DNA of 33,509 nt from Halorussus litoreus. Lineage in GTDB: Archaea; Halobacteriota; Halobacteria; Halobacteriales; Haladaptataceae. Under the pieces are notes generated by a model. The model searched no databases. It was given only the letters and a program-made list of their open reading frames with translations, and was not told where the DNA came from. The translations under genes and the position numbers were made by a program. Position 1 is the first letter of the stretch. Each line of letters begins with the position of its first letter. Of the stretch, positions 5,675 through 26,562 are shown one piece after another. The stretch lies in NCBI RefSeq assembly GCF_003382685.1, contig NZ_QLVG01000061.1:1-33509 (forward strand). Reading direction: 5' to 3'.

Positions 5675-6200
5675 GTGGCGGTAACGATTCCGGTGTCGTC
5701 CCGACTCGGAGTTGCGGTTGGTGGTGTGGTGGCGGTCGCGGTGACGGGTGCGGTCGCAGTGGCGGTAGCGGATGCGGTCGCAGTGGCGGTAGCGGGTGCG
5801 GTCGCGGTCCCCGAGGTTCAAGCAGTAGTAGCCGTCGCAGTTGCGGTAGCGGGTGCGGTCGCGGTTACGGATGCGGTTCGCATAGGCTCAACGATACTGG
5901 CGGCCACGGTTGTTGCTGTTACAGTGCCGGAGCCGAACGCGATCGTGGTTCACTGCACCGGCGAAAATACACCATTCGTGACAGCGACCGCTTCTATCGT
6001 TGAGCAAAGGAGAACCCCGACCGCAACCGCCTTCGCTACAGCAACCGCGACCGCAGCCGCTTTCGCTCCAACAACCGCACCTGCAGCCGCCTCCGCTACA
6101 GCAACCGCTACTATTCTTGAGCATATGAGAACCGCACCCGCGACAGCGACGGCAACCGCGACGGCACCCGCATCTGCACCAGCAACCACCTCGACATTTC
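5675..6200. repeat. Giant nested palindromic repeat, locus 1 (GCGGTN / NACCGC hexamer arms)
   Basis: The left half (about 5712-5880) is made of GCGGTN-type hexamers such as gcggtcgcggtgacgggtgcgg. The right half (about 6010-6190) consists of their complements (accgcaaccgcc, acagcaaccgcgaccgc). Two short inverted repeats punctuate the arms symmetrically. The inner pair is gctcaacgata (5886-5896) with tatcgttgagc (5995-6005). The outer pair is ggttcaagcagtagtag (5815-5831) with ctactattcttgagc (6107-6121), one base shorter. The whole could fold into a hairpin of roughly 500 bases. It fills the gap between the stop of the PHP gene (6207) and the promoter of dgcN (5661-5670). The open frame through it would encode Val-Ala then Thr-Ala repeats and looks spurious. 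Confidence 0.85.
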
Positions 6201-6944: not shown

Positions 6945-7257
6945 ACAGTACACAGCGCCGGAAGCGGCATATTCGTTGGGGCCTCGGTCGAACGTGAATA
7001 GAGACGTAGCTGAACCTAGCGGGATGTCCCCGAAAGCCCTCGGCGTGCTAGACGACGAATAGACTGCAAACGTGTCCCGGAAAGCCCTCGGCGCGGTTAC
7101 GGTCGAATCGGTGACCGTGTCGTTCCCCTCGGCGGTGTTCTCGACCAGCGCTACGTCCTCGCTGAACGTGAAGCTGTAGTTCACATCGTCGTCGGCGCTC
7201 CGAATCTCGACCGTGTTCGGAAGGCCGCCGTCGGTGTCCGCCGACGGCGCATAGTGG
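6945..7257 (-). pseudogene. Remnant of a haloarchaeal secreted/beta-domain protein
   Basis: Read on the minus strand, about 7257-7090 encodes LPNTVEIRSADDD, then NYSFTFSEDVALVENTAEG and NDTVTDSTVT. This resembles the small beta-sandwich domain (TIxGTGxxxNYEFTVSGxVE..DxVSGSxVxG) common in haloarchaeal exported proteins. Only this fragment remains. It runs in frame into two copies of PRAF(R/G)D encoded by a short repeat and then into the PHP gene. The likely original ATG at 7252 is in a different frame and hits TGA after 24 codons. A TATA-like cctttaagt remains at 7270-7278. I infer a decayed gene; the family recognition is from memory and moderate. Confidence 0.5.
7026..7093. repeat. Duplicated CCGAAAGCCCTCGGCG-type motif
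   Basis: gtccccgaaagccctcggcg (7026-7045) recurs as gtcccggaaagccctcggcg (7074-7093), each preceded by a gaatag(a/c) word. The core ccgaaagccctc recurs at 9951-9962, between two other genes. It may be a dispersed repeat of this genome. Confidence 0.55.
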
Positions 7258-23030: not shown

Positions 23031-23924
23031 TCACTTCTCTTTGAGGTTCAGGCACGCGAGTGCGGCGAACATCGCTTCTTCGGTTCGCACGACCTCGCTG
23101 CCTTGATTCGGAACCGCGTTCATCCAGAGGTCGAACCGGCTGGGTGCGCCGGATTCGACTCGGGACTCCGCGTCCGCCTCGTCCCTCGATTCGTCGTCGC
23201 TCGGCCACGCGCGGTCGAGCGAGTCGGTCGAGCGGTCGAGTATCTCCGGCAGCCCGCGACCCGGTGAACCGAACGCGACAGTCATGCCGTCGCGTTCGAT
23301 GCGGCCGACCGCGTCGGTCAGCCGCCGAGTCGTCAGCTCGACCCCGTGGCGGGACGTCGCGATTCGGACGCCCGCATCGTCGCGGTCGAGTGCCGCCGGG
23401 AGGTCCGCGCGCGTCACCGACAAGCCCGGAAGGGGCTCGTCTACGAGCTTCGCGCGGACCGGACTTCGCGAAGAGATCCTGACGGTAACGCGCTCCCCCT
23501 CGTCGACCGCCATTGCCGGCGGGGTGACGAGGGAGATCGGGTGTTGCAGTCCGCAATTGACCCGAACGCGCCCTTCAGGTCCGACCTCGGTCACGATTCC
23601 CTGTCTTATCGACCCCGAACCCTCGGATTCGGAGCCGGTCAGCGACGGGGCGCGGAGCGGCGGTAGGACGCCGACGTACTCCAGTTCGTCCCGCACGCCG
23701 AAGGCCTCCTTTCGGAGGTACGGCGGCGTCGCGGCGTATTCCAGCACTGTGCTGACGAACCCGCCACCCCACTTCCGCTCGCCGTCGGGGTCCGGAAAGA
23801 CCACGAGGCGGTCGGCCCGGAAGACGATCGCCGCGCGTGCGACGTAGCCGAGCTTGCGAGTCGCCTCGCGTTTGTCCTCGGCTTCCCGGACGAGGGATGA
23901 CGGAACGAGTACGCTGACAGTCAT
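23031..23924 (-). CDS. SPOUT-superfamily RNA methyltransferase (archaeal COG2106 / Methyltrn_RNA_3 type)
   Basis: 297 residues. The N-terminal VSVLVPSSLVREAEDKREAT and KLGYVARAAIVFRADRLVVF begin the SPOUT knot. An OB-like insertion lies around LPPLRAPSLTGSESEGSGSI and IRQGIVTEVGPEGRVRVNCG. The knot closes with TVAFGSPGRGLPEIL and a C-terminal FDLWMNAVPNQGSEVVRTEE AdoMet-binding segment. Eukaryotic relatives are SPOUT1/C9orf114; archaeal members are annotated as putative RNA uridine N3 methyltransferases, and the target base in this organism is unknown. It is the first gene after the promoter at 23981-23990 and commonly precedes rpl3 in archaea, so rRNA is a reasonable guess for the substrate. 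Confidence 0.85.
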   Translation of the reverse strand: MTVSVLVPSSLVREAEDKREATRKLGYVARAAIVFRADRLVVFPDPDGERKWGGGFVSTVLEYAATPPYLRKEAFGVRDELEYVGVLPPLRAPSLTGSESEGSGSIRQGIVTEVGPEGRVRVNCGLQHPISLVTPPAMAVDEGERVTVRISSRSPVRAKLVDEPLPGLSVTRADLPAALDRDDAGVRIATSRHGVELTTRRLTDAVGRIERDGMTVAFGSPGRGLPEILDRSTDSLDRAWPSDDESRDEADAESRVESGAPSRFDLWMNAVPNQGSEVVRTEEAMFAALACLNLKEK

Positions 23925-26179: not shown

Positions 26180-26562
26180 TGAGTGGTTCGCGGTGGCGGT
26201 CGCTGTTGCGGTGTGGTGGCGGTCGTGGTAGCGGTGGCGTGGCAGTCGCTGTTGCGGTGTGGTGGCGATCGCTGTTGCGGTGTGGTAGCGGTGGCGTGGC
26301 AGTCGCGGTGCGGTCAATCCTAGGCTCAAGCAGTAGCTAGGTCACGCGTTCGTTCTCTTCTGGTTCGAGAAGGTCCAATTCGAGAACGCTAGCTATCGCT
26401 TGAACCTAGGATTGACCGCAGCACCACAGCACAGCCACTGCACCGCAACCGCATAGCACCGCTACCGTCACTGCACCGCTACCGTCACTGCACCGCAACC
26501 GCATAGCACCGCTACCGCTACGGCACCGCTACCGCCACGCCACCGCTACCACACCACCGGTC
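26180..26562. repeat. Giant palindromic repeat, locus 2 (GCGGTN / NACCGC hexamer arms)
   Basis: The left arm (26184-26313) consists of gcggtggcggtcgctgttgc-type words with an internal period of about 57 bp (gtggtagcggtggcgtggca at 26225 and 26282). The right arm (26412-26560) is made of the complements (caccgctaccgtcactgcac) with a period of about 50 bp. The core is a 32-bp inverted repeat (26309-26340 with 26389-26420), identical at 29 of 32 positions. It encloses a loop that has its own 7-bp stem (cgttctc 26351-26357 / gagaacg 26382-26388). Both strands lack a plausible gene. It separates the stop of the HTH regulator from the promoter of the TrmB gene. Confidence 0.9.

Follow-up and report, generated by a model that had tools for sequence, protein, structure and literature searches.

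Between positions 5675 and 6190 of the window (the whole 33,509-nt stretch of Halorussus litoreus DNA analysed here) there is a nested imperfect palindrome, termed locus 1, which is not unique in its genome. Its start lies about 38 bp upstream of where a DUF1611 gene begins, and its end just past the 3' end of a PHP-type gene. The two half-blocks noted in a preliminary description are clearly seen in the sequence, with GCGGTN-type hexamers at about 5675–5880 and hexamers of the complementary NACCGC type at about 6013–6190, and so is the mirror order arm, IR1, arm, IR2, core, IR2', arm, IR1', arm. An inverted-repeat search gave arms of 57–81 nt with a complementarity of 70%–73%. The same description held that the block could fold into one very long hairpin. 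On folding of both strands, the predicted RNA of the plus strand reached −282 kcal/mol against −240.6 ± 6.8 kcal/mol for shuffles (z = −6.1), and that of the minus strand gave a z of −5.8. The palindrome thus exceeds a composition effect.

A second copy, locus 2, was found at 26190–26556, flanked by an HTH gene on one side and a TrmB-like regulator on the other. It has the same plan as locus 1 and is better preserved. With a box profile from whose training set the window was left out, its two boxes score 36.6 and 32.2 bits, far above the simulated maximum of 9.7. The features of both loci are listed in Table 1.

Table 1. Features of locus 1 and locus 2, in positions of the window
Feature	Position	Strand	Evidence
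Locus 1, outer left arm, GCGGTN hexamers, outer copy	5675..5809	+	sequence, inverted-repeat search
Locus 1, IR1 left, putative decayed A box CCGAGGTTCAAGCAGTAG-TAGC, outer copy	5810..5832	+	score 32 vs 22 best elsewhere
Locus 1, arm joining the two left boxes; probably outer arm of inner copy (assignment inferred)	5833..5880	+	
Locus 1, IR2 left, putative decayed box CATAGGCTCAA-CGATA-CTGGC, inner copy	5881..5902	+	score 30 vs 22 best elsewhere
Locus 1, innermost core; weak extra arm-like sequence	5903..5993	.	read by eye
Locus 1, IR2 right, putative decayed box, inner copy	5994..6012	-	score 22 = best background; strengthened by its pairing to IR2 left
Locus 1, arm joining the two right boxes, with NACCGC hexamers and 30-bp tandem units	6013..6107	-	
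Locus 1, IR1 right, putative decayed B box (TTCTCATATGCTCAAGAATAGTAGC), outer copy	6108..6131	-	score 30 with the A2 form, 26 with the B form; best elsewhere 22
Locus 1, outer right arm, outer copy	6132..6190	-	sequence, inverted-repeat search
Locus 2, left arm	26190..26313	+	
Locus 2, left A box TCAATCCTAGGCTCAAGCAGTAGCTAGG	26314..26341	+	36.6 bits vs simulated maximum 9.7
Locus 2, core (variable, 46 nt)	26342..26387	.	
Locus 2, right A box	26388..26415	-	32.2 bits
Locus 2, right arm	26416..26556	-	

Two other features of the window were recorded. GAAAGCCCTCGGCG occurs twice at 7024–7105, the copies being about 50 bp apart. They belong to a separate dispersed repeat, which is abundant in this genome and occurs closely spaced in genome G001 and whose GGGCTTTC motif is similar to the interior tail that half units carry in other families. 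On the minus strand, positions 23479–23578 match the L4-Archaeoglobi ribosomal leader of Rfam (79 bits), a haloarchaeal case of a family named for Archaeoglobi.

First searches of the genome with GCGGTN triplets and with the inverted-repeat motif returned tens of loci apiece. The 27-nt box common to these loci is either of form A (CACGCCTAGGCTCAAGCAGTAGCTAGC) or of form B (TTCTCATATGCCTCGGCAGTAGCTAGC). When up to two mismatches were allowed, the A-box pattern matched 125 sites in the 3.84-Mb draft of this genome (G000), compared with 1 for the reversed pattern, so the other copies sought after the preliminary description are plentiful. Most of the 86 stretches around the loci show one plan, namely GGAGGCTGGGGAGGNNNGAGG, arms of GCGGT/GCTGTGCGGT, a box with GCAGTAGCTAGC as its last letters, then a core and a mirrored second half. 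Intact copies are about 330–450 bp long and run from a GGCGCG end with hairpins through GGCTGGGGAGGNNNGAGGC, GCGGT arms, the box and a variable core of about 38 nt into their mirror image. The half unit comprises the GGCGCG end with hairpin P1a, GCGAGGGA, hairpin P2, GGYTGGGGAGGNNNGAGGC, the GCGGT arms and the box; it is found singly, or as two facing halves with a rapidly changing core of about 38 nt between them. The hexamer arms are one layer of this larger modular unit and do not define the family.

Simple box pairs face each other in 43 of 44 cases and point outward in one. Among 51 candidate full copies, the cores measure 28–46 nt, most commonly 38. Box pair types in the collected copies run A-B over A-A (33/14/4), an excess that we do not claim because the loci were gathered through the A pattern. 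The unit ends recur in two types, and the GGCGCG ends are inverted relative to each other. Judged by eye, no consistent target-site duplication adjoins the ends of the collected copies, and no ORF lies within the element. Cores at unlinked loci are related in several cases, with a best score of 66 against a shuffle maximum of 24. Alignments of such related copies span from the GGCGCG end to the CGCGCC end and then stop, the outer flanks being unrelated; whole units are thus duplicated at unlinked sites. Inside related copies, hairpin modules are swapped wholesale. The constant length of about 38 nt and a TTC edge had raised the idea that the cores are CRISPR-like acquired spacers, which was rejected as the core families diverge gradually between loci.

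Several loci carry additional tandem repeats. Six tandem 16-bp copies of GGCTGGGGAGGTTTGA lie at the outer motif of one element (L037 1618–1711; G000:C3:123163–123263). Long near-perfect repeat runs in the arms of two others (L043 1606–1790 and L112 1571–1800) suggest active slippage there. At L104 1540–1610, L111 1590–1660 and L235 1180–1420, tandem repeats of about 28 bp (in Halorussus) or about 52 bp (in genus g7 of another family) stand by unit ends and grow more degenerate with distance from the unit.

A gapless box profile detects one weak box at locus 1, and gapped alignment to the genome-wide box detects all four inverted repeats, with best scores of 32 (IR1 left), 30 (IR2 left), 30 (IR1 right) and 22 (IR2 right). 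The controls reached at most 22 in 7220 other windows of the contig and at most 24 in 200 simulated blocks; three of the four repeats therefore score above every control, and the fourth, IR2', ties the contig background. By this alignment, the four short inverted repeats are recognizable as decayed copies of the 27-nt box, in the orientation > > < <. The order box, box, core, box', box' is what insertion of one copy into an older copy's core would give, and locus 1 looks like a worn, doubly nested element of this kind. The arm-like sequence in its innermost core may represent a third level of nesting. One other cluster has an irregular box order (>< <), and clear nesting was seen at locus 1 alone. 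Within each pair of inverted repeats at locus 1, the same base is missing from both arms relative to the consensus. The idea drawn from these shared indels, that the two arms of a palindrome undergo concerted correction, found no support genome-wide: among all full copies, with the poor match C3:103887 excluded, the boxes of the two halves of a copy agree at 11.06 of 14 positions, compared with 11.21 of 14 for halves of different copies. Concerted correction is therefore not the rule.

Beyond this genome, the A box (at most two mismatches) has 0–45 copies in 17 congeners, 3 in one sister genus of the family and 0 in the other, and was absent from 31 genomes of other families of the order. Named matches fall in Halorussus species, Halomicrococcus gelatinilyticus and a halobacterial MAG; a single bacterial match is taken as chance. 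Solitary half units, the box turned towards a gene, are frequent in other Halorussus species. The GGYTGGGGAGGNNNGAGGC motif is present in 25 of 117 genomes of the order (reversed control, 0 or 1 per genome). G000 has 96 copies, a congener that lacks A boxes has 38, and genomes of genus g7 have as many as 55. The outer half module extends to several other haloarchaeal families, where it is joined to other interiors such as GGGTGGGACTCAAAGGGGCAG...CTGGGGCTTTGG. Similar stretches occur on plasmid records of Halorussus, Halobaculum, Halorubrum, Haloarcula and Natrinema, and no annotated gene lies beneath the best plasmid matches where annotation exists. Phage records gave no match, and the 24 pattern matches in IMG/VR are about the chance level by estimate, so viral carriage is not claimed. 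A literature search, with subscription journals mostly outside it, found no paper on the repeat.

Comparison of orthologous junctions revealed presence and absence of the repeat by whole units. In G126, a block of about 630 bp separates two convergent genes, whereas the aligned genes of G068, with flanks 94%–96% identical, are only 17 bp apart; the same junction measures 8, 32 and 34 bp in G157, G170 and G154, respectively, and two relatives hold a diverged copy there. The empty junction differs in sequence, which places the insertion to the junction rather than to the exact point. At the promoter adjoining locus 2, 14 of 15 congeners are without any unit and one has a variant half; the upstream gene is different in all of them, so neither a clean empty counterpart nor a precise junction was obtained.

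Structural analysis of 17 simple-type half units yielded a consensus of 22 base pairs, 12 of them with compensatory changes. In these half units, which were picked for a simple P2 and from which the structure itself was derived, so that the slid control is biased in its favour, 94.0% of the cells are paired, compared with 22%–46% for slid structures and with 80.2 ± 1.2% for shuffles, a control that ignores relatedness. Cells with double changes number 47, against 14.0 ± 2.9 when shuffled. The half module in other haloarchaeal families keeps the covarying two-hairpin structure, and P1, P1a and P2 covary around invariant GAGGGA and GGYTGGGGAGG in half units of several families. The excess of pairing is still large; therefore the fold is under selection or is copied as a fold, in a manner that fits RNA and DNA alike.

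This conserved pairing bears on the possibility of a structured non-coding RNA family, in which the half unit is transcribed, its hairpins and purine-rich linkers form an RNA fold and the copies are dispersed genes. The covariation around the two invariant motifs favours such a family, as do the TTATAAA-like boxes that precede the GGCGCG end of several copies in G126. However, DNA hairpins would covary likewise, the copy number runs from 0 to about 125 among congeners, units are present or absent at orthologous junctions, and no Rfam family was matched: in 77 kb searched against Rfam 15, no repeat match rose above the gathering score, the only hits being an L4 leader and one tRNA. We thus consider an RNA family doubtful as the primary nature of the repeat. 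In genus g7, TTATAAA-like boxes stand at a similar distance upstream of the GGCGCG end at L223, L235, L239, L247 and L251 and are possible promoters.

The repeat is located in the gaps between genes. In an 810-kb sample chosen regardless of the motif (five contigs and the window), real elements occupy 5 convergent, 8 divergent and 12 tandem gaps, compared with 90, 107 and 236 among all gaps of at least 60 bp, and four more matches within genes are lone outer motifs without a box. Over all the G000 loci examined, 9 of 84 clusters fall inside ORFs from a crude gene finder, most of which are probably false gene calls. In two places genes lie between facing half units, a cytidine deaminase at L042 1842–2774 and Lsm plus ribosomal protein L37e at L056 1826–2587; that these are cassettes inside a palindrome was rejected, since they are household genes and two independent half units are likelier.

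The preliminary description also suggested a large terminator or insulator, to which a chromosome-architecture site of BIME type may be added. The hairpins are indeed very stable, and 6 of 8 loci examined in G126 sit between convergent genes. In G000, however, all loci examined divide into 21 convergent, 16 divergent and 38 tandem gaps, against 90, 107 and 236 among all gaps of at least 60 bp; such a role is unsupported there because copies fill the three types about as all gaps do. That nearly all congeners lack a unit at the promoter adjoining locus 2 also argues against it, and we regard this explanation as improbable. Among half units taken from other genomes, convergent gaps have a larger share than in G000 (18 of 43), and a 3'-end role in some lineages is therefore possible.

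Among known systems, the repeat is best read as closest in kind to the small mobile repeats (SMRs) of Haloquadratum. SMR-A and SMR-B of Haloquadratum walsbyi have inverted ends unrelated to known transposons, are too short to encode a transposase and exist in many copies; they make no target duplication, their mobiliser is unknown, and they strongly tend to enter palindromes (PMC3119063). SMR-A inserts into the palindromes of other elements (PMC3119063), from which nested palindromes would result. Compared by description, the two share a haloarchaeal host, inverted terminal repeats, high copy number and the lack of a transposase gene. SMRs are about 80–110 bp long; SMR-A measure about 110 bp and are commonly more than 95% alike within a type (PMC3119063). 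In contrast, the present repeat is 330–630 bp long, highly divergent and modular, has a hypervariable core and stand-alone halves, and spans several families; it is neither short nor above 95% identity as an SMR would be.

The preliminary description had further named a MITE-like or PATE-like element, and the first part comes close. PATEs derive from IS605-type elements, share near-terminal palindromes with them and lack inverted terminal repeats (PMC3119063). Movement by a Y1 HUH transposase, either of a PATE or of a REP/RAYT-type repeat, would agree with palindromic, intergenic units without an ORF in a haloarchaeal host, where PATEs are known (PMC3119063). The inverted ends of our repeat are nevertheless foreign to PATEs. 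PF01797 was unmatched in G000, which has the most copies, and in G001, G002 and G010, and was matched in 5 of 14 control genomes. Such a transposase is unlikely because G000 has no PF01797, and we give this explanation very little weight. REPs measure 20–40 bp and carry GTAG/CGTC tags, and REPINs are linked to RAYT transposases. Like REP, REPIN and BIME sequences, the repeat sets two inverted units about a short spacer, is intergenic and varies in copy number between relatives (PMC3116915, PMC3733652). It differs from REPs and REPINs in being longer and in having neither GTAG/CGTC tags nor a RAYT (Y1) gene. The bacterial ERIC/IRU sequences are intergenic imperfect palindromes and BOX elements consist of modular units, their mobilisation being unknown or in trans. 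The repeat resembles ERIC/IRU in the former respect and BOX in the latter, but hosts and sequences differ, and we know of no self-nesting of the locus 1 kind for either. Finally, a hexamer microsatellite grown by slippage and palindromic by chance or inverted duplication, the outcome foreseen for a block of drifting hexamers with no conserved inverted-repeat order and no other copies, is already refuted for the element as a whole and keeps almost no probability, since, tandem-like and length-variable as the GCGGTN arms are, ordered non-hexamer boxes and outer modules recur at tens of loci and the halves of one copy show no extra similarity; slippage probably alters arm length.

Taken together, locus 1 is most likely a degenerate double copy, the second in the core of the first, and locus 2 a single copy, of a non-autonomous mobile palindromic repeat, which apparently spreads although it carries no gene. 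A non-systematic look for a parent transposon found no mobilising enzyme or autonomous relative. In a putative model for this mobile repeat, the unit would move as a folded DNA strand, and an enzyme supplied in trans would act on the folded unit. Favoured targets would be the centres of palindromes or hairpins, the core of the unit itself included, and such a preference would lead to onion-like nesting. More tentatively, and with low confidence, the repeat might represent a new haloarchaeal class of mobile structured element, in which the half unit is a conserved fold (P1, P1a, GAGGGA, P2 and GGYTGGGGAGGNNNGAGGC) with interchangeable interiors, recognised by an enzyme as folded RNA or single-stranded DNA and growing inwards by targeting its own loop.

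In summary, this analysis describes a repeat with up to about 100 copies per genome, whose structure is kept across several haloarchaeal families without an Rfam model or a gene annotation under its plasmid matches. Mobilisation of the Haloquadratum small mobile repeats was termed enigmatic in 2011, and the question of the enzyme has been open since. The natural presence/absence sites provide a handle for finding the enzyme that moves transposase-free palindromes. Moreover, the repeat offers a case of large nested palindromes, normally thought unstable, that persist and evolve in archaea.
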